DNA from: Planctomycetota bacterium
Lineage (GTDB): Bacteria; Planctomycetota; Phycisphaerae; UBA1845; PWPN01
Assembly (NCBI GenBank): GCA_029550525.1
Contig: JAKPHF010000048.1
Span: forward strand, 124,001-188,000
Direction: 5' to 3'
Length of the DNA stretch: 64,000 bases
Part shown: positions 50,513 through 64,000 of the stretch, piece by piece
Layout: each line of letters begins with the position of its first letter
How positions within the stretch are numbered: the first letter of the stretch is position 1
The notes under the pieces: model-generated
What the model saw: only the letters and a program-made list of their open reading frames with translations
Database searches by the model: none
Told to the model about the DNA's origin: nothing
Made by a program: the position numbers and the translations under genes

Positions 50513-51268
50513 ATGTCCACTGACGCCGGCGACCGCCTGTCCATCGCACGCCAGGTTCTCGAGCGGATGAGCCTGCGGCCGGGCTGCGCTCACGTCTGCC
50601 CGTACCTGCCCGACCGCCAGGCTCGCGATGTGGCGTTCCAGGTCCGGCGCATGCCGCCCGGGCTGTACCATTCGCTTATGGATTTGAACTTTCGGCGCAG
50701 CGGGCTGATCGTGTATCGGCCCGCCTGCGACTCCTGCAGCCAATGTCGCGCGATTCGTCTGCCCGTAGCGGAGTTTCGGCCGAACCGCAGTCAGCGACGA
50801 TGCTGGGCGGCCAACGCCGACGTCACCGTCGGGCTCTCTCCACCCCTGCCCACGCCGAGCAAGCACGAGCTCTATCGCCGCTACCTCCGGCAGCGACACG
50901 ACCGCCAGATGGACGAGTCCTGGGATGCCTTCCGCGACTTCCTCTATCGCTCGCCCGTGGACTCCCTCGAAGTGGTCTACCGCCGGCGCGACCGCCTACT
51001 AGGCGTGGGCATCCTGGATTTCGACGGCGATGCGGCCAGCACCGTCTATTGCTACTACGACCCCGACGAGCGCGGCTCGCTCGGTACGTTCAACATCCTG
51101 TGGACGATCGACTATTGCCGCCGCCTGGGCATACGTTGGGTCTACCTGGGCTACGCCATCCAGGACTGCCCCAAGATGAACTACAAGCTGCGCTTCCGTC
51201 CGCACGAAATCCTCGCCCCCGACGGCACGTGGATCCGCAGCGAACCTTCCGCGCTACAACACCCGTAG
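50513..51268 (+). CDS. Arginyl/leucyl-tRNA-protein transferase (Bpt/Ate1 family)
   Basis: A 251 aa N-end-rule transferase that adds an amino acid from tRNA to protein N-termini. The Cys motif CPYLPDRQARDVAF, the FRRSGLIVYRPAC segment and CSQCRAIRLPVAEF with RSQRR are diagnostic. The C-terminal half is GNAT-like. Leu versus Arg specificity cannot be decided by eye. The start is ATG 50513 directly after a repeat block, with only a weak ribosome-binding site. Its 3' end overlaps the convergent GTPase gene by 15 bp. Confidence 0.9.
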   Translation: MSTDAGDRLSIARQVLERMSLRPGCAHVCPYLPDRQARDVAFQVRRMPPGLYHSLMDLNFRRSGLIVYRPACDSCSQCRAIRLPVAEFRPNRSQRRCWAANADVTVGLSPPLPTPSKHELYRRYLRQRHDRQMDESWDAFRDFLYRSPVDSLEVVYRRRDRLLGVGILDFDGDAASTVYCYYDPDERGSLGTFNILWTIDYCRRLGIRWVYLGYAIQDCPKMNYKLRFRPHEILAPDGTWIRSEPSALQHP

Positions 51269-52219
51269 CTCAGGTATCACGCCGAGACTGCGCGCGAATG
51301 CATCGACGTGCGGCCGGGCCGCGGGCGCGGCGATGATCACCAGCTCGCCCGCTTGCGAGTCAACCGGTTGGTATGAGGAATGAACACTGCGCGGATCATT
51401 GCGGCAATCAACACCCGCCGCGGAAACATCGACGTATACCACACCCGCGGGCGTGCGCACGAAACCTTTGGCACGATAGACGTGCGGTTGCAGCTCAGTC
51501 AACGCACTGACCAGCCGCTCGCGTTCGACGTGGCATGTCACATTTACGACACGTGACTCGACGTTCGGATCCACGCATTGTGCATACTCGCCCACCAGTG
51601 AACGGTGTGGCTCGGCCCCGCCGATCTTTGCCGTAACGGCATCCGCGGCGAACACGTCGAACTCCACCCGGCAATACTGCGTGCACACCACGCGTGCCCC
51701 AGGGTTCATTTCGCGAACGCCGGCGATCGTCCGCTCGACCTGCTCGGCCGTGTATAAATCGGTCTTGTTGATCAACACCACGTCGCTGGCTTCGACCTGG
51801 GCGATGATATTCGGCAGCGTGTGCACGAGCTTGGAGAAGCTGCCGGGGTCCACCACCGTCACAATCGTCCGCAGGTCGTAAACGATATCCAGCCGCGTTT
51901 CGGCCAGCATCTGCACGATCACCTTGGGGTCGGCGATGCCGCTGGCTTCGATGAGCACGCCGTCCGGAACGGACGCATCACTGACTTGACGCAGGACGCG
52001 GATGAACTCACCCACCAGGCAACGACAGAAAATGCTCCCGCCGGGAATGCTCACCCGTTGTTCGGGAGGCAGCTCGACGAGCTCACCGTCGATGTCCACC
52101 GGCCCAAACTCGTTGATGATGCAGACGCACCGTCGCGAACGGCTCCGTTCGATCAACCCGCGCATCAACGTGGTCTTGCCGCTACCGAGAAAGCCGGTGA
52201 TGAGCGCGAGCGGAATCAT
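51254..52219 (-). CDS. COG0523/CobW-family GTPase, putative metallochaperone
   Basis: A 321 aa G3E GTPase. Walker A is GFLGSGKTT; NKTD is the guanine-specificity motif. The usual CxCC metal motif appears as the variant FCRC (GGSIFCRCLVGEF). The C-terminal CobW domain runs from about residue 210. It lies 31 bp after the UroD-thioredoxin fusion on the same strand. This pairing suggests it delivers zinc to, or serves the corrinoid of, that methyltransferase-like protein (inference). Confidence 0.88.
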   Translation of the reverse strand: MIPLALITGFLGSGKTTLMRGLIERSRSRRCVCIINEFGPVDIDGELVELPPEQRVSIPGGSIFCRCLVGEFIRVLRQVSDASVPDGVLIEASGIADPKVIVQMLAETRLDIVYDLRTIVTVVDPGSFSKLVHTLPNIIAQVEASDVVLINKTDLYTAEQVERTIAGVREMNPGARVVCTQYCRVEFDVFAADAVTAKIGGAEPHRSLVGEYAQCVDPNVESRVVNVTCHVERERLVSALTELQPHVYRAKGFVRTPAGVVYVDVSAAGVDCRNDPRSVHSSYQPVDSQAGELVIIAAPAARPHVDAFARSLGVIPELRVL

Positions 52220-52250
52220 GGGAACCTCAACGTGAGAAGCGGTGGACTCC

Positions 52251-53618
52251 TCACTGTTTCGCTTTGATCTTTTCCTCCAGCGCCTCGATCAGCGTGGTGA
52301 TGTCGGGAATGATGGACGGGAACTTCACCTCACCGTCGATGCAGATGGTGGGAATCTGCCCCACGCCGAGTTTGGCCATGTGGCCCAGACCGCTGCGGGT
52401 CGTGATCTTGTGCTCGTTGACGACCACGCGGTCGCCAAACTTCTGCGCCGCCCGCTCCACCGCGGCCACCATGTACTGGCAGGGAGCGCACGAGGCCGAG
52501 TCCAGCGTGATGACGTCCACGATTACGCGATCTTCGTGCGAATAATCCGGCAACTGGATGTCGTCGAAAGACTCTGCCGAGTCCACCTGCGTGGCCGCCC
52601 GAGCCACGTTGCGCTGGTACTCGTCGTGCACCATGTGGGCCACCGCCTGCAGGTTGGCCTCCGGCGTGGCGTAAGGCAGATCGCAGCCGGGGGCCAGGAT
52701 GAACCCTTGCGTCCCGCCGATGTCAATGCAGCGCAACGCGTCCCGCCGAGCCGCCGCCTCGTCCCCGAGCAGGAGGACGGTGGTCAGCTTGAGGTTTCCG
52801 CCGAAGCTCTTGCCTGCCGCCCGCGCCATCTCGCCCAGCCGAGCAAGGTCGATGTTCTCATCGACCGACACGTTGTCGCATCGTGTCGCACACATATTCT
52901 CGAGGTTGCGGGTGGCGTTACCGCACACGAACAGCGATGACAGCGCGCCCTTCTCGCGAATGTGGTCGAAGACGACGTTGACCGGGGCGGTCACAAACTC
53001 CTGGAAGTGCTTGGGCGAAATCTGACTGGTCATGGGATCGACCACGGCCACCACGTCCGCCCCCTGGTCGATGTAGAAGTCCGCCGCCTTGCAGCCCACG
53101 CCCGCGCAGAAGTCCACCACTCGCTTGACCAGATCGGGATTGTTGAACATCTCCAGGAAGATGTTCGTCCCCATGAGGTGCAGGGCCAGCGTGAACGGGC
53201 CGGTGATCAGCCCGTACAGCGCGACTTCCTCGCCGATCTGCCGCTTGATCGTCTTCATCGCCTCGGCGACGACGGGATAGCGACGCTTGCCTGTGTCAAA
53301 CGACGGCAGACCGTCCAGATCCGTGCCCGACGAGAGCGGGTGCGACGTCACCGCAGGCGGCGTCTCGTCCGACCATCGCAGTTGGCAGCCCAATACCTCG
53401 GCTTCCAACTGCAGATCGAACACGATGGGCAAGCCATCGGGCCGATAGAGCTCGAAGGCTCGAGTCAGACCTCGAATGATCAGCTCGGCCGATCGCAGGT
53501 AGTTCTGCGCCGTCGCCCCGATGATCTTGCCGCCGTGCACACCCACGAACGGCACCCAGGCCGGCCGGGACGTGGACTGATTCCGCAACGCGTTCAGCAA
53601 AAGCGTCTTGCCGCTCAT
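52251..53618 (-). CDS. Uroporphyrinogen decarboxylase-family (MtaA-like) protein fused to a thioredoxin domain
   Basis: A 455 aa two-domain protein. Residues 1-345 form a UroD/MtaA-type barrel as in corrinoid or CoM methyltransferases. The family's zinc site is only partly kept: FVCGN (Cys232) has Phe where HxCG is usual, while Cys312 (APGCDLP) is present. Residues 363-455 are thioredoxin-like with CAPC (Cys377, Cys380) and the cis-Pro segment GQIPTICIDG. GAGGTGA 8 bp before ATG 53618 fixes the start. The track extension crosses the promoter region shared with the divergent DUF423 gene. It is in an operon with the COG0523 GTPase. No haem-pathway neighbours occur, so a haem role is unlikely. 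Confidence 0.82.
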   Translation of the reverse strand: MSGKTLLLNALRNQSTSRPAWVPFVGVHGGKIIGATAQNYLRSAELIIRGLTRAFELYRPDGLPIVFDLQLEAEVLGCQLRWSDETPPAVTSHPLSSGTDLDGLPSFDTGKRRYPVVAEAMKTIKRQIGEEVALYGLITGPFTLALHLMGTNIFLEMFNNPDLVKRVVDFCAGVGCKAADFYIDQGADVVAVVDPMTSQISPKHFQEFVTAPVNVVFDHIREKGALSSLFVCGNATRNLENMCATRCDNVSVDENIDLARLGEMARAAGKSFGGNLKLTTVLLLGDEAAARRDALRCIDIGGTQGFILAPGCDLPYATPEANLQAVAHMVHDEYQRNVARAATQVDSAESFDDIQLPDYSHEDRVIVDVITLDSASCAPCQYMVAAVERAAQKFGDRVVVNEHKITTRSGLGHMAKLGVGQIPTICIDGEVKFPSIIPDITTLIEALEEKIKAKQ

Positions 53619-53773
53619 GTGGAGATTCACCTCGGTCAGTGTTCCGCGGACCCGGGGAACTATGGTACAAGGTGCAAGCGGGGATTGCGAGGACCGCCGG
53701 AGCTTCTCGGCCCGTACGCCGGCTTCGCCCGGCCCCGGTTCCCGACCCAACCCCAATGCAAGGAGATGCCTGC

Positions 53774-54219: not shown

Positions 54220-55014
54220 TCAAGCGGACCGTTCGGCCACCACGAACGTGCGGCCGCGATCGAGGAAGCTTCCCACATTCAGCACCCGCCGTTCGCGAAT
54301 CGTGAACAGCCGGCCGATAATCTCGATCACTCCCGCAAGGCCCTCGCCTTCGTGATCCGGGGCGTGCGACTCGAACAGAAACAGGCCGCCGGGCGGGAGC
54401 AGGTCGCGACACTTACGAAAATACGTTTCCAAATCCTGGCGGGTGTTGCCGTCGTACGTGTGATGGTTCGCGAACGAGAGAACCGCGTCGTACGCCTGGT
54501 CCGAGGTAAAATCCTCGAAACTGGATACGTCGAATCGCGTGTTATCCGTCCCGAGCCACATCGCCGCCTCGCACGCCATTCGCACCAGGTATGGATTGAT
54601 GTCGAAGCCGGTCACTTCGCGGGCCACGTCCGCGACGGACAGCCCGAGAAACCCGCTGTTGCAGCCGATCTCCAACACCCGCCGTCCGGCGAGCTTCTCC
54701 CGCAGGCCCATCGCGGCGACGCGGGCGGCTGTATCTCGAAGGCCGCTCACGCCGATCTGCGGAAAGGACTGGTAGAAGTACCCTTCGCCGTAGTCGTAGC
54801 TGCTCCACTCCCGGGCGGAGGCGACAAGCTGCTCGTTCAACGCTCGATGTAACGGCAGCAGTTCCGGGTGTCGGCCCAGGTTGAGGTAGTCGTGGTACCG
54901 GTTCAGCATCGACGCTCGGCGCAGGGAGGTCGGCGCCCGCCAAGCCGCGAACAGAATCCTGGGCACCGCGTACCAGGAGAACCGCTCGTACGCTGAAAGA
55001 AACTGATCTGACAT
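54220..55014 (-). CDS. Class I SAM-dependent methyltransferase
   Basis: A 264 aa protein. Motif I is VLEIGCNSGFLGLSVA. The acidic residue after strand 2 is in GFDINPYLV, and later segments are YDAVLSFANHHTY and LLPPGGLFLFESH. The first 90 residues are helical and not typical of a known substrate group. It is the last gene on the minus strand after the aminotransferase, separated by 183 bp that contain a GC-rich palindromic repeat. Substrate unknown. It could modify a product of the nearby surface-polymer cluster. Confidence 0.82.
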   Translation of the reverse strand: MSDQFLSAYERFSWYAVPRILFAAWRAPTSLRRASMLNRYHDYLNLGRHPELLPLHRALNEQLVASAREWSSYDYGEGYFYQSFPQIGVSGLRDTAARVAAMGLREKLAGRRVLEIGCNSGFLGLSVADVAREVTGFDINPYLVRMACEAAMWLGTDNTRFDVSSFEDFTSDQAYDAVLSFANHHTYDGNTRQDLETYFRKCRDLLPPGGLFLFESHAPDHEGEGLAGVIEIIGRLFTIRERRVLNVGSFLDRGRTFVVAERSA

Positions 55015-57510: not shown

Positions 57511-58905
57511 TCAAGCGAGCCCGAACAGATGGGACAGCACCCGACGGCGCAGCCGGGGATGCATGAAGTGGTAAGTGACGCCCTCCGAGGGATCTTGCGG
57601 TGCGGTCGCGAGTTGCTGCGGATTGACCGCCGAACTCAGCACGTTCACCAGCAGATCGGCGCGGAGCAGTGGATCGATGAAGGCGAAAACCGCCCGGTAG
57701 AGCGTGAGGTCATCGGGCCAACTGCCGTTCAAGCGCAGATTCAGCGGCGGGTACTCGCGGCGGGCGATCACGTCGCCGGTGTCCAGCCCGGCCGACAAGT
57801 GAAAACAAGACATGGCCGGCCGGCCGCGCACCAGCGTGGACCACAACAATCCGTCAGCGCCCCGCACGTGAGGCAGATGGCCGGGGTGGACATGCAAGAA
57901 GCGTAAGCCAGGCAGGTCAATGATCCGGGCGGGCAGGATGCCGCCGCCGGTGAACAGCACGGTCGAGGGCGTGATGTCGCGCAACGCGTCCGCCAATCGC
58001 TCGTCGCGAAGATCGCGGACGACCACACGATCCGCGCGTTGGGCCCAGCGCTCATATCGCGGCGGACCGTACATGTCGTCGATCAACTCGCCCGGCCGAT
58101 CGACGATCGCCGCCAAGCCGTCGGTGATGGCACGAACCAGATTCGGATGCGCGGCACGTAGGCGTCGAGGCCAATGGTTCAGCGCCATCTCCTGCGTCTT
58201 CTCGGCATACCAACTGCGCAGCCGGCCGGGAAACCACCGCCCCACCGGCTTGTGCGAGGCCGGATGCTCGCTCAAGACCAGCAACACGAGGCGCTCAGGT
58301 CGCAAACCCGCTCGTCGCAGCGAGCTCAGGTATGCGCGAAAACACGGGCCCTCGTAGCCCAGGACGGTGACGGGCAGCGTGCGGTCGGCTGACGGAACTC
58401 GCCGCTCGCCTCTTTCGTGGGCCGCATCCCCCTCGATTTCACATGCTGGAACGGCCACCGCGCTCAACAACTGTTCGGCCTGCTCGGCCAGTTTGCCCGC
58501 TGCGATCTGTTCGCCGAAGAACGAATCCAGCGCGGTCAGCGCTGCGTTCAAAAGCTTGTATGCCAAACCCCGCCCTTCCGGTCCCATCTGCTCGGGCACG
58601 TGGGCCCATGCGAGAAGCGTGGCCACGGCCAACGTGGCGCCTTGCAAGTCCAGCGGGTTCTTCCCGCCCTTCGCTGGCTTCCAATTCTCGCCGTATCGCC
58701 TGTACAGCGTGCCAGTGAGTGCCAGCTTGCGACAGATGGCGTCCAGATATTCGCGGTGAAGCGAAGTCAGCGGACCTGGCCACGCTCGTGCCAATTCGCG
58801 GAGAACGCCGAGCGTGGCGATCCCATCATCGTCAGCGGACCCCGCGCAAGCGCCGGTCCCCACGTTTTTCAGCGCTTCCGACAACCGCGTCTCGATCGAA
58901 GTCAT
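57511..58905 (-). CDS. Formyltransferase-like protein with long N-terminal region
   Basis: A 464 aa protein. The C-terminal 280 residues have a formyltransferase fold. The core FLHVHPGHLPHVRGADG carries His where the usual catalytic Asn stands (N-x-H becomes H-x-H), and the catalytic Asp is kept in GLDTGDVIARREYP. The first 180 residues are helical and unlike known formyltransferases. ATG 58905 was chosen because it starts 1 bp after the upstream stop (TGAGATG). It is the last gene of the five-gene cluster. It may transfer a formyl or related one-carbon group to an amino sugar or amidate; this is inference. Confidence 0.7.
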   Translation of the reverse strand: MTSIETRLSEALKNVGTGACAGSADDDGIATLGVLRELARAWPGPLTSLHREYLDAICRKLALTGTLYRRYGENWKPAKGGKNPLDLQGATLAVATLLAWAHVPEQMGPEGRGLAYKLLNAALTALDSFFGEQIAAGKLAEQAEQLLSAVAVPACEIEGDAAHERGERRVPSADRTLPVTVLGYEGPCFRAYLSSLRRAGLRPERLVLLVLSEHPASHKPVGRWFPGRLRSWYAEKTQEMALNHWPRRLRAAHPNLVRAITDGLAAIVDRPGELIDDMYGPPRYERWAQRADRVVVRDLRDERLADALRDITPSTVLFTGGGILPARIIDLPGLRFLHVHPGHLPHVRGADGLLWSTLVRGRPAMSCFHLSAGLDTGDVIARREYPPLNLRLNGSWPDDLTLYRAVFAFIDPLLRADLLVNVLSSAVNPQQLATAPQDPSEGVTYHFMHPRLRRRVLSHLFGLA

Positions 58906-58906
58906 C

Positions 58907-60118
58907 TCACCGACCATCCTGCTCGCCTTCTGTCTCCTGGCGCCTGTCTTCTGTCTCCTGCCCTCCAGCAATCTCCGCAATCGCTCGTGCCCCCACCCGT
59001 CCGCTCTCGCTCACGTTGTACACCGTTTCGGCCCGAACTCGCTGAATACGGGCCCGTATTCCCTCACCGTCGCGCATCAACGCTTCCAGATGCATCGGCA
59101 GATCGGCCAGACGGTCCGGAGATATCACCCGGCCGACTTGCTCGCGAATCGAGACCTCCAGCGGTTCGCAACTGATCCGTTCGTACTCGGGGTTGTTGAC
59201 CTTGCGCGGCACGTCCACGAACAGCACCGGTCGCTCGTACGCGAATGCGAACTCCAGCGCCGCTCCCGACCAGTCGCTGATCATCACGTCCGCGGACTCG
59301 AGTGAATCGAATGCCGCCACGCCCGTCTCCAGCGTCAGTCGATCCTCCCCGCCGAACCCACGCTCGATCTCGCGGATGCACTCAGGCCACTTGCGTCGCG
59401 TCATGGGGTGCGGCCGCACCGTCACCCGCAGCCCCGACGACAGCAGTACCCGGCATAGCTCGACGCCGCGTGTCTCCAGGAGTCCGTGCGGCCCCCACGA
59501 CGGCGCGACCAGCACATGGGCCGGCGCCGAACGATTCGGTGCTGCCGACGAGCCGGCGCGACGCGAGGCGAGCATGGTATCAAGACGGCCGTAGCCGCAT
59601 GGGATCAGCTTCTTCGGGGCAAGTCCATAGGTTTGTTCCGTGGCTCGAATTTCCCGCTCGTGATGCGGGCCCACGCACAGGATCGTGTCGAACGCGTCGA
59701 ACGCCGCTTTTCGATAGATCATGTGCGTGCTGACCATGGAATGAAACACGTAGACGTAGTGCACGTTCTGCGCCTGCGATCGCTTGAGATGGAACGTCTG
59801 CAGGTCGGGCATCGTCATGACGCACACGCCAGCCCGCAGCGACAGGAACAGCGACGTACGAACGAGACCCTCGCCGATGCAAAAAGGTCGGATGCGTGGA
59901 TTGGAAGTCCGCAGCACCGGATCGCTTCGGCTCGACGTGAGATAGCAAACCTCGCGGCCCATTTCGCCGGTCAGCTCGCGCACGATCGGCTCGAAATGCG
60001 GCCAGGAATCGCCGTCCTCGGCATAAAACACAATCGACCGCGCCGCGTCAGGCAAGGCTTGAAACCGCCGAGCGCTGGCCCAGTCTTCCAGCAATGATTG
60101 ACCAGGAAAGCGAAACAT
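58907..60118 (-). CDS. CDP-glycerol glycerophosphotransferase-like enzyme
   Basis: A 403 aa GT-B-like transferase. VLVAPSWGPHG, RVTVRPHPMTRRKWPE and ADVMISDWSGAALEFAFAYERPVLFVD are typical of the teichoic-acid TagB/TagF polymerase family. Members move a phospho-group from a CDP-activated donor onto a surface polymer. In this cluster the donor could be CDP-activated phosphoramidate (inference). The last 20 residues (GQETEDRRQETEGEQ) are encoded by an intergenic-type 27 bp repeat that has extended the reading frame. No transmembrane segment was seen. It lies 63 bp after the nucleotidyltransferase gene. Confidence 0.82.
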   Translation of the reverse strand: MFRFPGQSLLEDWASARRFQALPDAARSIVFYAEDGDSWPHFEPIVRELTGEMGREVCYLTSSRSDPVLRTSNPRIRPFCIGEGLVRTSLFLSLRAGVCVMTMPDLQTFHLKRSQAQNVHYVYVFHSMVSTHMIYRKAAFDAFDTILCVGPHHEREIRATEQTYGLAPKKLIPCGYGRLDTMLASRRAGSSAAPNRSAPAHVLVAPSWGPHGLLETRGVELCRVLLSSGLRVTVRPHPMTRRKWPECIREIERGFGGEDRLTLETGVAAFDSLESADVMISDWSGAALEFAFAYERPVLFVDVPRKVNNPEYERISCEPLEVSIREQVGRVISPDRLADLPMHLEALMRDGEGIRARIQRVRAETVYNVSESGRVGARAIAEIAGGQETEDRRQETEGEQDGR

Positions 60119-60181: not shown

Positions 60182-60982
60182 TTAGGCATTCGTCATGGCT
60201 GGTGCGAAGTCCAGGCAACACAGCTCGTCCAATGTGCCGTCGTGCCGCATCCGCTCGTACATCTGCAGATCGCTGACGCTGTCCACCTCCAGCCAGCCTC
60301 CGTCCACGGGCACGGCCCGCACGGGCCAGTCATGGTCGACGAGGTGCTGCAGGAAGCTGGTCATGAACATGCGGTGCTTCGGCTTGCCGTCGTAGAGCCG
60401 AGCGTCGTCCAATCCGCGATAGATGGCCGGGAGCATGCGGGCGAATTCGGCCCGAGCCAGGATGAGCCCCATGTACTGGGCCTCGATCTCGTCGATCGAC
60501 TTCGGTTTGCCACCGATCTCGACGATGTTGCCCCCGGCGTCCAACCGCAACGTCTCGGCATCCGTGAGCGGATCCTCTTGCCGAGCCCGCCACAACCGCA
60601 GCCACTGCCGGTCCACGGTCGTGCACAACGGCCGACGGCAACCGCACAGCGCCTCCACGATCCGCGGCTCGTAGACGATGTCGGCGTACGCGATGAGCAC
60701 ATCATCCGTGCCGTCGAGCAGATCCGCCGCACACATCAGGCTGGCCACCATGTTGGTGGACGCATAGTTCGGATTATGACGCATGGGCCGGCCGTACGAA
60801 GCAAGCGCTTCGGCTCGATAGCCGGTCACCAGCGTGACGTCCTCGATGCCCGCCGCCGCCAGCGCGTCGAGCTGGTACTGCAGCAGCGGACGACCCGCCA
60901 GTTCAACCAGGCACTTGGGCCGATCGTTGGTGAACGGCCGAAGCCGCGTACCCTCTCCGGCCGCCAGAATAATCGCTCTCAC
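60182..60982 (-). CDS. Nucleotidyltransferase, Cj1416-like (CTP:phosphoglutamine cytidylyltransferase candidate)
   Basis: A 266 aa enzyme. The nucleotide-binding signature is LAAGEGTRLRPFTNDRPKCL. Metal ligands are probably Asp in AYADIVYE and in GGWLEVDSVSDLQ. It is closest by eye to the phosphocholine/phosphoglutamine cytidylyltransferase group. Its neighbours are a class I amidotransferase-like hydrolase (4 bp overlap) and a PEP-synthase-like kinase, the exact set found for Campylobacter Cj1416-1418. In that pathway it would couple CTP to glutamine phosphate. An ordinary sugar or choline cytidylyltransferase is the alternative. Confidence 0.8.
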   Translation of the reverse strand: MRAIILAAGEGTRLRPFTNDRPKCLVELAGRPLLQYQLDALAAAGIEDVTLVTGYRAEALASYGRPMRHNPNYASTNMVASLMCAADLLDGTDDVLIAYADIVYEPRIVEALCGCRRPLCTTVDRQWLRLWRARQEDPLTDAETLRLDAGGNIVEIGGKPKSIDEIEAQYMGLILARAEFARMLPAIYRGLDDARLYDGKPKHRMFMTSFLQHLVDHDWPVRAVPVDGGWLEVDSVSDLQMYERMRHDGTLDELCCLDFAPAMTNA

Positions 60983-61629
60983 GCGTGCCCGCCTCCGAAC
61001 AAGGTGCGAAGAATGACCACGTCGCGCTCGTCACGGCTGCCGCCCGGACGGATCGGTCGCTCCGGGTGCCACATAATCGCCCAGATGGGCAACGTCCGAT
61101 GGACTACCGCCTCGACCCCGCCGTCCGGAGCCATTCCCGCCACCACCAGTTCCCCCGGCAAATGCTCCGCCCGCGCGACGAACCGGTGAAAACTGTTGAC
61201 CTCGGCCCGGGGCAGCGTCGGCATGTTGGACGGACGCGGGATGATCGGGTGCGGCACGCGCACGTGACCTTCGGTCGCAGCCAGCCGTCCGCCGAAATGA
61301 CGCACCACGAATTGCATGCCCCGGCAGACGCCCAGCACGGGCAGCCGCCGCTCGATGCAGTGTTCGAGCAACTCGCGCTCGAACGCGTCGCGCTGCGGCG
61401 CGACACCCGTCGCCCCCGGCACGTCGGCCAGGTCGTTGCCTCCCGTGAAGATCACGCCGTCCAGACCCAATGCTCCGACGAGTCGCCCGGCGTGACCCGG
61501 CTGATTCGGCAGCGGCACGGGGACGAACCCTGCGTGCAACACGACCTGAGCCCAGGCTTGATCGAGAGCATCCCGTCGCTCGTCGCGATCGGCAAGCACA
61601 TCGACACGCTGCGTCAGGCCGATTTTCAT
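60979..61629 (-). CDS. Peptidase C26 hydrolase, Cj1417-like (gamma-glutamyl-CDP-amidate hydrolase candidate)
   Basis: A 216 aa class I glutamine amidotransferase-fold protein. The nucleophile is in VLGVCRGMQFVV, and the His/Glu pair is in MWHPERP. It resembles gamma-glutamyl-GABA hydrolases. In the Campylobacter pathway the counterpart releases cytidine diphosphoramidate and glutamate from gamma-glutamyl-CDP-amidate. The gene starts 12 bp after the kinase-like gene and overlaps the nucleotidyltransferase gene by 4 bp, which implies tightly coupled production. Confidence 0.82.
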   Translation of the reverse strand: MKIGLTQRVDVLADRDERRDALDQAWAQVVLHAGFVPVPLPNQPGHAGRLVGALGLDGVIFTGGNDLADVPGATGVAPQRDAFERELLEHCIERRLPVLGVCRGMQFVVRHFGGRLAATEGHVRVPHPIIPRPSNMPTLPRAEVNSFHRFVARAEHLPGELVVAGMAPDGGVEAVVHRTLPIWAIMWHPERPIRPGGSRDERDVVILRTLFGGGHA

Positions 61630-61641
61630 GAGGGCTCGTAC

Positions 61642-64000
61642 CTACCGTATTTTGCGGATCTGGCCGCTCGCACAGTCCAGCTCGACCATTTCAGCCGTGC
61701 TGGTCTGCTCGTACAATCGCTCGCCTACGCCGATCGCCGCCGGCAACTGAAATTCGGCCGCGCGAATCGCCATATGCGAGTTGGCACCCCCATACATCGT
61801 CACCAGTCCGGCAATCGGGTGAGAGAAAATCCAATCGAAGCCGGGATCCGCGTTCGGCGTGACCACCAACTTGCCGGCCAGATCGACGTCCGGCCGGCTC
61901 TTGTTCGACAGGCACACCACCTCGGCCTGCACCTTGCGCGACGTGATGAAGTTGGGCTGTGCCCGCAACTGCTGGAAACAGACGATGTCCAGTTCCGAGC
62001 GAATCTGCCCCGGCAAGCAAACCGCCTGCGTCAGTGCTGCCTGTTCGCGGCCTTCAGCCGCCCATCGTTCGAGCCGCCGCGTCACGTTCTCGCATGACGC
62101 GCTGCGAAGCGACAGCAGATCGGTAATCCGGATCTGGGCCAGATCATCGCGAGTCAAAAAGTGGGCTGCGCCAAAGTCGGCGATGGCCTCGAGCGCCGCG
62201 CTCAGATTGCGCGTGAACACGAATTTGGCATACTCTCGCCCCTCGATGGCCCGACGGCAGAAGTGCTCGAAGCCGTCCGCGTCCACGCCGAGATTCAGCC
62301 TGGCCAACTCGGCATTGACAGCGCTGCGGGTCGTCGCGTCCCAGACCTCCTCACGCGCCGCAGGCGTCTCCGCATTTCGTGCCCCGGCCACGATCGGCCG
62401 CAAGTAAGCCTCGGCCATGCTCGCGTAGTTGGGCGACGTGATGTCATACGTGCCGGGGCGCAGGTGCCCATATCGCTCGACGAACGCATCCCATTCCAGC
62501 TCACCGCGGGCGACCGCCGCCGCATCCTCCTGGAGACGGCTCGAGACCGTCCGCACGCTCGCGAGAAACGCGTCCTTCTGCGCCGCCGAGATGATCCCTG
62601 CGTCAACCAGCGAGCGCAGCAGACTCACTGCCACGAAGCCGTTCCGCGCCAGGTGCGCGAACGCCAGCACGCTGCTCAACCGCGCGTCTTCCAGCCATAG
62701 GAATGCCTTCTCCAGCGGCGGCAACTGCGCGGCGCGGATCGTTTCGAACCGCCGCTGCGCATCGGCCAGCACGGCCCAATCGCGCTCGCAGCGGGCGATC
62801 CCGCCGCGGGTAATGCCGATGAGCGCCGAGCGAAGTCGGCGAATCTCCTCCTCGCTGAAGCGGGCCTGCCGCAGCCGGTCGGCCTTGGCATCGAAATCGA
62901 ACGTCATGCAGGTGAACAGGACGTCGAATTCGACCTTGTCGTGCAGTTCGGGATTGCACGAAAGGTGATCGAGGTAATGCTCGAGCAGCCGCTCGGCCAG
63001 CGCGTCCGGCAATGCCGCCGGAATGAACGAGTTGAACGTCGCCCTTACGTCGATGTACGGATGCCCCAGTATATCGACCAGCAACTGGCAGGGCCGCACG
63101 TCGCGGTAGCCGTACTCGCTGCGCTGGCGGGCCCACGTTTCGTCGGTGATGAGGTAACGATACAACGAGAACGCCAGCCGCGAAGGCTTGGTGCCCACGA
63201 TCTCGGCCGGGTTCCAGTCGGTCATCACGCTCAACTGTGTCGATCGCCCCAGCAGATGCGGTCGCGGCCGCTGTAGCTCGCGGAAGAAGCGAATCGCGTC
63301 CCGCACCGCATCCGTGAACCGTTGATCGTCCACGGGATGGTCGGGATGCGCGACAGCGATGGGCCGAACCTGCAGGACATGTGCCGTGCCGTCGTCGGTG
63401 AAGGCGAACTCGATGTCGAGCGAGTCGTGTCCGACCAGTTGCTCGATTTCCTGCACGACGGCGATCAGCCGGTAGAACTCGCCGGGCAACCCCGGCCGCA
63501 GCATCATGCCGCGCTTCAGGAAGAGCGTGCGGACAGCCGAGCTTTCGCCCGACGTCACGGTGTCTGTGCGGCTCGTCGTGTTGTCGTAGTTGATGACGTA
63601 GTACGGGGCTCCCAGCGTGGGCGTGCGGGTCATGACCACGCCGCTCATGGTCACGTTCCGCAGCATCTCCTGCACGAGCACCTGGTTCTGCTCGTCGGGC
63701 TCGCCGTAAGACGCCAGCACGCGCTCGATGGCTTCGGCCAGTCGAGGCGTGTCGCTGGCCGGCACGTCGAGCACGCTCGTGTACGCTCCGGCCGACGACT
63801 GCCGCCAACTGTCCTCGCTCAGTGCGCTGCTGCGGACGATGACGTTGGCGTCCGCAAACGCTTGTTCGATCCGATCGAGCACGGCGGGACGGTTGCGTTG
63901 CCACTCGCCATGCGTGAACGAGACCGATTCGCCAATGTGCCCGATCTGCACGAGCGGGCGCAGCCGTTCCAGCGACTCGGCCTTCGTGCCCAGCACGAAT
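61642..64000 (-). CDS. PEP-synthase-like phosphotransferase, Cj1418-like (L-glutamine kinase candidate), 5' partial
   Basis: At least 785 codons, running off the right edge. The track start (GTG 63996) is probably internal, because VLGTKAESLERL looks like the usual opening strand of the family. The ATP-grasp domain contains VIVRSSALSEDSWRQSSAGA. The C-terminal swivelling domain has the phosphorylated His in MYGGANSHMAIRAAEFQLPA (residue 741 of the track ORF, 44 from the end). There is no PEP-binding barrel at the end, so it is not a PEP synthase or PPDK. This architecture and length match Cj1418, which phosphorylates the amide of glutamine. It is the first visible gene of the cluster. Confidence 0.8.
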   Translation of the reverse strand, partial: FVLGTKAESLERLRPLVQIGHIGESVSFTHGEWQRNRPAVLDRIEQAFADANVIVRSSALSEDSWRQSSAGAYTSVLDVPASDTPRLAEAIERVLASYGEPDEQNQVLVQEMLRNVTMSGVVMTRTPTLGAPYYVINYDNTTSRTDTVTSGESSAVRTLFLKRGMMLRPGLPGEFYRLIAVVQEIEQLVGHDSLDIEFAFTDDGTAHVLQVRPIAVAHPDHPVDDQRFTDAVRDAIRFFRELQRPRPHLLGRSTQLSVMTDWNPAEIVGTKPSRLAFSLYRYLITDETWARQRSEYGYRDVRPCQLLVDILGHPYIDVRATFNSFIPAALPDALAERLLEHYLDHLSCNPELHDKVEFDVLFTCMTFDFDAKADRLRQARFSEEEIRRLRSALIGITRGGIARCERDWAVLADAQRRFETIRAAQLPPLEKAFLWLEDARLSSVLAFAHLARNGFVAVSLLRSLVDAGIISAAQKDAFLASVRTVSSRLQEDAAAVARGELEWDAFVERYGHLRPGTYDITSPNYASMAEAYLRPIVAGARNAETPAAREEVWDATTRSAVNAELARLNLGVDADGFEHFCRRAIEGREYAKFVFTRNLSAALEAIADFGAAHFLTRDDLAQIRITDLLSLRSASCENVTRRLERWAAEGREQAALTQAVCLPGQIRSELDIVCFQQLRAQPNFITSRKVQAEVVCLSNKSRPDVDLAGKLVVTPNADPGFDWIFSHPIAGLVTMYGGANSHMAIRAAEFQLPAAIGVGERLYEQTSTAEMVELDCASGQIRKIR

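Follow-up and report, generated by a model that had tools for sequence, protein, structure and literature searches.

A predicted TagF-fold transferase gene within a proposed phosphoramidate gene set

The gene at positions 58907 to 60118 (minus strand) of the window, the 64,000-nucleotide stretch of Planctomycetota DNA analysed here, probably encodes a transferase with a TagF-type fold, which would use cytidine diphosphoramidate as its direct donor and release CMP, the donor being read from the gene context. ORF reading on the minus strand gave exactly these bounds, with an ATG start and 403 codons (403 aa). The ORF lies downstream of a cytidylyltransferase gene, on the same strand as a kinase-hydrolase-cytidylyltransferase trio. 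Its position behind these genes was confirmed, and as the same set recurs in other genomes the arrangement goes beyond chance. Short repeats (ETEDRRQETEG / RRQKTGARRQK; window 58907-58980) run across the end of the ORF and the start of the next one, and the final 20 or so residues are probably read-through into this spacer rather than genuine coding sequence.

The initial annotation held that the three preceding genes would make a CDP-linked amidate, and the profile matches agree with it. The kinase part of a Cj1418-like L-glutamine kinase (61642 to 63996, minus strand) scored 882.8 bits against NF004508/PRK05849 (cut-off 501). This gene crosses the window edge; the complete ORF (L064:5643-8819) has 1058 aa and carries an additional N-terminal NTP-transferase-like domain (28% over 245 aa when compared with the cytidylyltransferase of the window). 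A comparable domain or stretch precedes the kinase in L098 (from the genome of L027), L029, L031 and the Roseovarius and Vibrio plasmids, and none was seen in L063. The next gene (60979 to 61629, minus strand) encodes a class-I glutamine-amidotransferase-like hydrolase (Peptidase_C26), proposed to be a Cj1417-like gamma-glutamyl-CDP-amidate hydrolase; it matched NF045546, the model of that name, at E 3.1e-33 and 115.5 bits, below the cut-off of 250. The third (60182 to 60982, minus strand) is a LicC/Cj1416-type cytidylyltransferase (PF12804, NTP_transf_3, 2.1e-20), proposed to act as a CTP:phosphoglutamine cytidylyltransferase; its closest solved relative is LicC, a CTP:phosphocholine cytidylyltransferase. 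Kinase and hydrolase genes are 12 bp apart, hydrolase and cytidylyltransferase genes overlap by 4 bp, and 63 bp separate the cytidylyltransferase from the transferase.

Family, fold and conserved histidines

Searched alone against Pfam, the protein gave a single match, PF04464 (Glyphos_transf), at E 0.005 and 16.3 bits where the gathering score is 22.1 bits, and none with NCBIfam models. The TagB/TagF-like call of the initial annotation was thus fair but weak from one sequence, and the sub-threshold scores of this protein in Pfam and of the hydrolase in NCBIfam count against the preferred reading. Neither a phmmer search of the PDB with the protein nor one with a three-sequence profile returned anything useful; no match was found among plasmids, and 70 pattern matches in viral contigs included no relative. 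When genome contigs were scanned with the three-sequence profile, 37 related loci were recovered from many phyla of bacteria and archaea. The family alignment comprised 36 members (the window's and 35 others), the partial sequences L054 and L063 being left out. All but one of these 36 matched PF04464 at E <= 0.1 (best 3.7e-15), and the 36-member profile found Staphylococcus aureus TarL (8va1) at E 2.7e-5, which neither the single sequence nor the three-sequence profile had reached. Compared by hhalign with a profile of eight Planctomycete TagF-like proteins, it scored 99.6% over 333 columns.

The AlphaFold2 model of the protein had a mean pLDDT of 90.8, and Foldseek placed TagF (3l7k) first in the PDB with E 2.1e-11 and TarL sixth. 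VIA-align superposed the model on TagF with Z 22.0 and an rmsd of 4.8 over 337 residues, a score tied by UDP-GlcNAc 2-epimerases, which also have the GT-B fold. Given this tie, family membership is decided by the sequence profiles and not by the fold alone. Two histidines, H126 and H237, were invariant in all 36 members. In the alignment with the Planctomycete TagF-like proteins, H126 falls on the histidine of FHG and H237 on that of PHD; H237 also aligned with TarL. We take this pair to correspond to the two essential histidines of TagF-type enzymes. Through the FHG motif, H126 would be the equivalent of TagF H444, a residue named in PDB titles. The family has its own signature, FH[S/A/T/N] instead of FHG, mostly followed by STHM. 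From profiles and model, the gene encodes a predicted GT-B-fold transferase of the TagF/TarL superfamily. In L011, L013, L015, L016, L017 and L022, Planctomycete TagF-like proteins of the FHG type adjoin LicC-like cytidylyltransferases, an arrangement that would be a separate CDP-donor system.

Gene context of the relatives

Marker proteins were searched for by tblastn in the window and in the 37 loci. The full set of kinase, hydrolase, cytidylyltransferase and transferase genes was present in five of the 38 (the window, L027, L029, L031 and L063); the L027 contig has just the end of the kinase gene, and in L063 a reversed formyltransferase-like gene stands between cytidylyltransferase and transferase. 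A PEP mutase was encoded within the stretch in 12 loci, the typical arrangement being a cytidylyltransferase-PEP mutase fusion, a phosphonopyruvate decarboxylase-like TPP enzyme and an Fe-ADH beside the transferase; the phosphonate gene set of L046 was confirmed by Pfam. Adding L052 (TPP enzyme and Fe-ADH) and L039 (a cytidylyltransferase-Fe-ADH fusion) brings the phosphonate loci to 14. In three further loci an ATP-sulfurylase-like and pyruvate-kinase-like pair lies directly beside the transferase (L030:10133-12675, assigned by Pfam; L034:6920-8975 and L049:10141-12215, by similarity). Their hosts are two Deltaproteobacteria/Myxococcota MAGs and one Woesearchaeote, and the pair may make a third kind of activated donor. 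The fetched stretches of the remaining 16 loci yielded neither trio, phosphonate genes nor sulfurylase pair by tblastn, and four of them (L041, L042, L044 and L054) have a related cytidylyltransferase near the transferase.

The proposal of phosphoramidate transfer held in part. The trio does travel with the transferase, in the five loci above, which answers the co-occurrence survey suggested by the initial annotation. Since most relatives with readable context appear to serve CMP-activated phosphonates, the proposed new donor for this fold would belong to a wider P-C/P-N family. That the P-N trio accompanies just five of 38 transferases, with 14 in phosphonate, three in sulfurylase-type and 16 in marker-less loci, counts against the preferred reading.

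Apparently different histories of donor genes and transferases

A quick tree was built from 30 cytidylyltransferases; its row L101, excised in the wrong reading frame (9 X), sits on a false long branch and is disregarded. The 17 glutamine-kinase-linked sequences (the window's and 16 others) required a single change on this tree, which none of 500 shuffles matched, with a branch support of 75. Placing the five P-N members on the transferase tree takes three changes. The partial L063 transferase is closest to that of the phosphonate cluster L062 (59% over 157 columns), and the L063 cytidylyltransferase groups with the P-N set. As the cytidylyltransferases sort by chemistry and the transferases do not, repeated donor switching is suggested; on the plain reading of these sequences, the choice of phosphorus group would rest with the cytidylyltransferase, and the transferase would have moved between chemistries. 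A single clade of P-N transferases (the window's, L027, L029, L031 and L063) was rejected at a cost of 61.7 log units (AU p 0.0005), a result not relied on alone, as the L063 sequence is incomplete (158 residues) and the bootstrap unsettled. Thirteen alignment columns separating P-N from P-C transferases passed the filter; because most P-N rows are close kin these mostly mark a subclade, and none is claimed as a donor determinant.

Co-occurrence in genomes and the search for other donors

Glutamine kinase was found in six of the 38 genomes and PEP mutase above its cut-off in 17, leaving 15 with neither. In the sixth kinase genome (G395, which holds L030) the kinase sits apart, clustered with an APS-kinase-like gene (L097). 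In a background of 392 Planctomycetota genomes the kinase occurred in eight and PEP mutase above cut-off in 14, so that both were enriched among the relatives' genomes (Fisher, 6/38 against 8/392, p 6e-4; 17/38 against 14/392, p 3e-12). These p values serve as guides, since a single-phylum background is set against relatives from many phyla, several of them partial MAGs. Within the 392 genomes the focal transferase had matches in 13 at E <= 0.001 and in four at E <= 1e-30, and three of these four have a glutamine kinase (Fisher p 2e-5). The four are the window's own genome, G103 (L029 contig), G057 (L053 contig, with PEP mutase) and G250. In G250, transferase and kinase lie on different contigs; the transferase, a 30% relative, is near YidC-like and cytidylyltransferase-like genes, and the kinase belongs to an APS-kinase-type cluster.

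We consider it very improbable that the enzyme is an ordinary CDP-glycerol or CDP-ribitol phosphotransferase with incidental operon membership and a donor made elsewhere. Fold and histidines are those of TagF/TarL, and the window's genome (contamination estimate 5.89%) holds one full-length IspD-type gene; as TarI belongs to the IspD family, a TarI-like activity stays conceivable and, with a second LicC-like gene also present, so do other CDP-alcohols. An IspD is, however, expected anyway for isoprenoid synthesis. The initial annotation had seen no CDP-glycerol synthesis gene nearby and had named a glycerol- or ribitol-phosphate cytidylyltransferase elsewhere in the genome, together with conserved glycerophosphate-binding residues, as the observation that would overturn its proposal; no TagD exceeded the cut-off in the window's genome or in the 37 genomes of the relatives. 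The window genome's own TIGR01518 matches are HldE-like and RfaE-II-like proteins, and its four PF01467 proteins resemble NadD, CoaD, HldE and an RfaE-domain-II protein. Moreover, the gene set recurs in five loci, and the genome has no other PF04464 protein at E 0.001. Descent raises a different alternative, equally hard to credit, in which the enzyme is a CMP-phosphonate transferase still using a phosphonate while the P-N trio is served by a transferase outside the cluster. PEP-mutase clusters do house most of the relatives with readable context, and the fold does not distinguish P-C from P-N donors. Yet the window's genome has no PEP mutase over cut-off: its best TIGR02320 match scored 75.1 bits against a cut-off of 319.55, and the EDKxxxxxNS motif is absent from its two strongest PF13714 matches. 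Across the 38 genomes, the six with glutamine kinase and the 17 with PEP mutase do not overlap (p 0.024).

Glutamine-kinase clusters lacking the focal transferase

For comparison we assembled 21 kinase loci without the focal transferase: six from Planctomycetota (L084-L089), L097 from G395, and 14 plasmid records, which were all the plasmid records with glutamine kinase found. An APS-kinase-like gene of the Cj1415 type was detected nearby by tblastn in nine (L067, L068, L084, L085, L087, L088, L089, L097 and L106). None was detected by tblastn in the available stretches of the five focal cassettes, of which L027, L029 and L063 are on short contigs, so that the APS-kinase and the TagF-type transferase are mutually exclusive in the stretches examined. 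The window's genome has one APS kinase, on another contig. A PF04464-type protein was present in five of the 21 loci, namely three Vibrio records, Roseovarius and Pseudohalocynthiibacter. The Vibrio protein (one of three tested) scored 22.5 bits against the cut-off of 22.1 and matched the focal family weakly in hhalign (30.6%); Roseovarius and Pseudohalocynthiibacter have a borderline protein in common (21.2 bits), encoded upstream of the kinase. In two Rhizobiaceae loci, on plasmids of Agrobacterium vitis (L070:13335-13997) and Allorhizobium ampelinum (L110:10325-10987), the glutamine kinase trio is followed by LysE and a CDP-alcohol phosphatidyltransferase, an arrangement found in these two of the 21 that suggests another transferase type for CDP-amidate. 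That other glutamine-kinase plasmids carry other CDP-using protein types in the same place counts in favour of the preferred reading. Five loci (L069, L086, L107, L108 and L109) had no APS-kinase-like, PF04464-type or CDP-alcohol phosphatidyltransferase gene. Beside the glutamine kinase of Azospirillum lipoferum is an 846-aa protein (L067:5632-8172) that ends in an APS-kinase domain and whose large N-terminal part matched nothing in Pfam; it is a possible transferase-kinase fusion.

Neighbouring genes and the nature of the acceptor

A formyltransferase-like protein with an extra N-terminal region is encoded at 57511 to 58917 (minus strand; start codon uncertain). It scored 24.7 bits against PF00551 (cut-off 26.1), its best solved relative is the PseJ formyltransferase (E 4.4e-5), and its gene is present in four of the five cassettes (window, L027, L029 and L063). 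Its active-site motif reads HVHP in the alignment, where formyltransferases usually have N-x-H. A role in tailoring the acceptor is probable. A class I SAM methyltransferase (54220 to 55014, minus strand; PF13847 and others) likewise occurs in four of the five, with homologues in L027, L031 and L063; in the window it is separated from the rest of the cassette by GntR and aminotransferase genes. It is a possible candidate for an O-methylation step. Further along, at 51254-53756, an MtaA/CmuA-type uroporphyrinogen-decarboxylase-like protein is fused to a thioredoxin-like domain and adjoins a CobW-type GTPase.

These neighbours leave two other accounts to consider. The phosphoramidate could be methylated, formylated or otherwise tailored on CMP before transfer, which we regard as quite unlikely. 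The frequency of the methyltransferase and formyltransferase-like genes in the cassettes would fit it, and against it tblastn detected neither of them in any of the 14 phosphonate loci that carry related transferases; the order of steps is not readable from sequence. It is also unlikely, in our estimate, that the trio feeds a small-molecule natural product and the enzyme couples phosphoramidate to a soluble alcohol, an account that keeps the donor of the preferred reading and differs in the acceptor. The adjacent GntR regulator, aminotransferase and formyltransferase-like genes would suit a small-molecule cluster. On the other side, the genes beyond the kinase, read by eye, resemble exopolysaccharide genes (glycosyltransferase, polysaccharide deacetylase, FemAB/CelD-like), and the kinase loci of Roseovarius, Pseudohalocynthiibacter and two Vibrio records are set among polysaccharide or glycosyltransferase genes.

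Proposed mechanism and relation to known systems

The preferred reading, direct transfer from cytidine diphosphoramidate, builds on observed gene content, kept histidines, co-occurrence and TagD absence, and on the predicted fold; from these we infer the donor, its direct use and the release of CMP, and likewise the acceptor and any later O-methylation. The upstream enzymes would phosphorylate the amide nitrogen of glutamine, load the product on CMP and remove the glutamate by hydrolysis, yielding cytidine 5'-diphosphoramidate (CMP-O-PO2-NH2). TagF-type reactions proceed by attack of an acceptor hydroxyl on the distal phosphorus of a CMP-activated donor, with CMP as the leaving group. The same attack here would give a sugar-O-PO2-NH2 group, the acceptor most likely being a surface or exopolysaccharide sugar. 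What distinguishes cytidine diphosphoramidate, CMP-phosphonates and CDP-glycerol from one another is only the third substituent of the distal phosphorus (NH2, carbon and O-glycerol, respectively). The proposed reaction would thus be that of TagF with O-glycerol replaced by NH2, and in the sister loci by a carbon substituent (hydroxyethyl or a similar phosphonate). NH2 and CH3 are near-isosteric, and a TagF-type site tolerant of small substituents could accept donors of either bond type, P-N or P-C, in keeping with the loci. Since the cassette is without a Cj1415-like kinase, 3'-phosphorylation of the donor is not expected.

The focal enzyme shares with TagF/TarL, the PF04464 polymerases that make poly(alditol phosphate) from CDP-glycerol or CDP-ribitol, the GT-B fold, two conserved histidines and, as that chemistry is generally understood, a CMP-activated donor attacked at the distal phosphorus. 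It differs from them in having no TagD partner gene and in standing beside donor genes for a P-N (in its relatives a P-C) group; it is also shorter than TagF (403 aa against a 729-residue chain), with 12% identity in the structural alignment and FH[S/A/T/N] in place of FHG. With the Campylobacter jejuni MeOPN pathway (Cj1415-Cj1418, Cj1421/Cj1422) the cassette has in common homologous glutamine kinase, hydrolase and cytidylyltransferase types and, in most cases, a methyltransferase, whereas it lacks the APS-kinase-like CDP-amidate kinase (Cj1415 type) and has a TagF-fold protein in the transferase slot. No TagF-like nature is known for the MeOPN transferase of C. jejuni itself, which counts against the preferred reading. 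Papers from Raushel reportedly deal with glutamine kinase, CDP-amidate kinase and phosphoglutamine cytidylyltransferase. Pnt phosphonate tailoring (Ppm-PntC; CMP-HEP, Fom1-type cytidylyltransferase) likewise activates an unusual phosphorus group with CMP, and relatives of the focal gene follow Ppm-cytidylyltransferase fusions, decarboxylase and Fe-ADH genes; the bond is P-C in Pnt and P-N here.

Glutamine kinase is established to make N-phospho-glutamine; nucleoside diphosphoramidates come from later steps, after which a 3'-phosphate is added in C. jejuni (compare PMC6429109). The abstract of the PntC paper calls the steps after the mutase enigmatic. As neighbours of its clusters, PMC6697681 mentions LicD-like phosphotransferases and glycosyltransferases, and its text contains neither 'Glyphos' nor 'glycerophospho'. 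In the Campylobacter HS1 work, as far as available, a 637-aa MeOPN transferase is tabulated apart from TagF. A PubMed Central search for phosphoramidate with glycerophosphotransferase returned a nucleotide-sugar review (PMC7729866) and two Campylobacter capsule papers that, in the portions available, treat the TagF-like gene as a glycerophosphate enzyme; one for phosphonate, glycerophosphotransferase and phosphoenolpyruvate mutase together returned no paper. Further sources, likewise seen as excerpts, were PMC3907429, PMC8949473, PMC7901785, PMC12409886 and PMC8931226. None of the sources searched gives a name to this TagF-fold transferase family.

The enzyme probably hangs rare P-N or P-C groups on surface sugars. 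We see an even chance that a TagF-fold family in bacteria and archaea transfers CMP-activated substituted phosphoryl groups onto glycans, with carbon, nitrogen and perhaps a third substituent, the cytidylyltransferase setting the chemistry and the transferase being swapped. The transfer step is the poorly known end of phosphonate and phosphoramidate surface decoration, and a TagF-fold enzyme linked to both chemistries offers one testable protein for both. Such an enzyme also points to a phosphoramidate route free of the Campylobacter 3'-phosphate, and glycans carrying P-N groups would be expected in some Planctomycetota as well as in other environmental bacteria. If the family reading is true, phosphoramidate decoration would have a second route, one that skips the Campylobacter 3'-phosphorylation.
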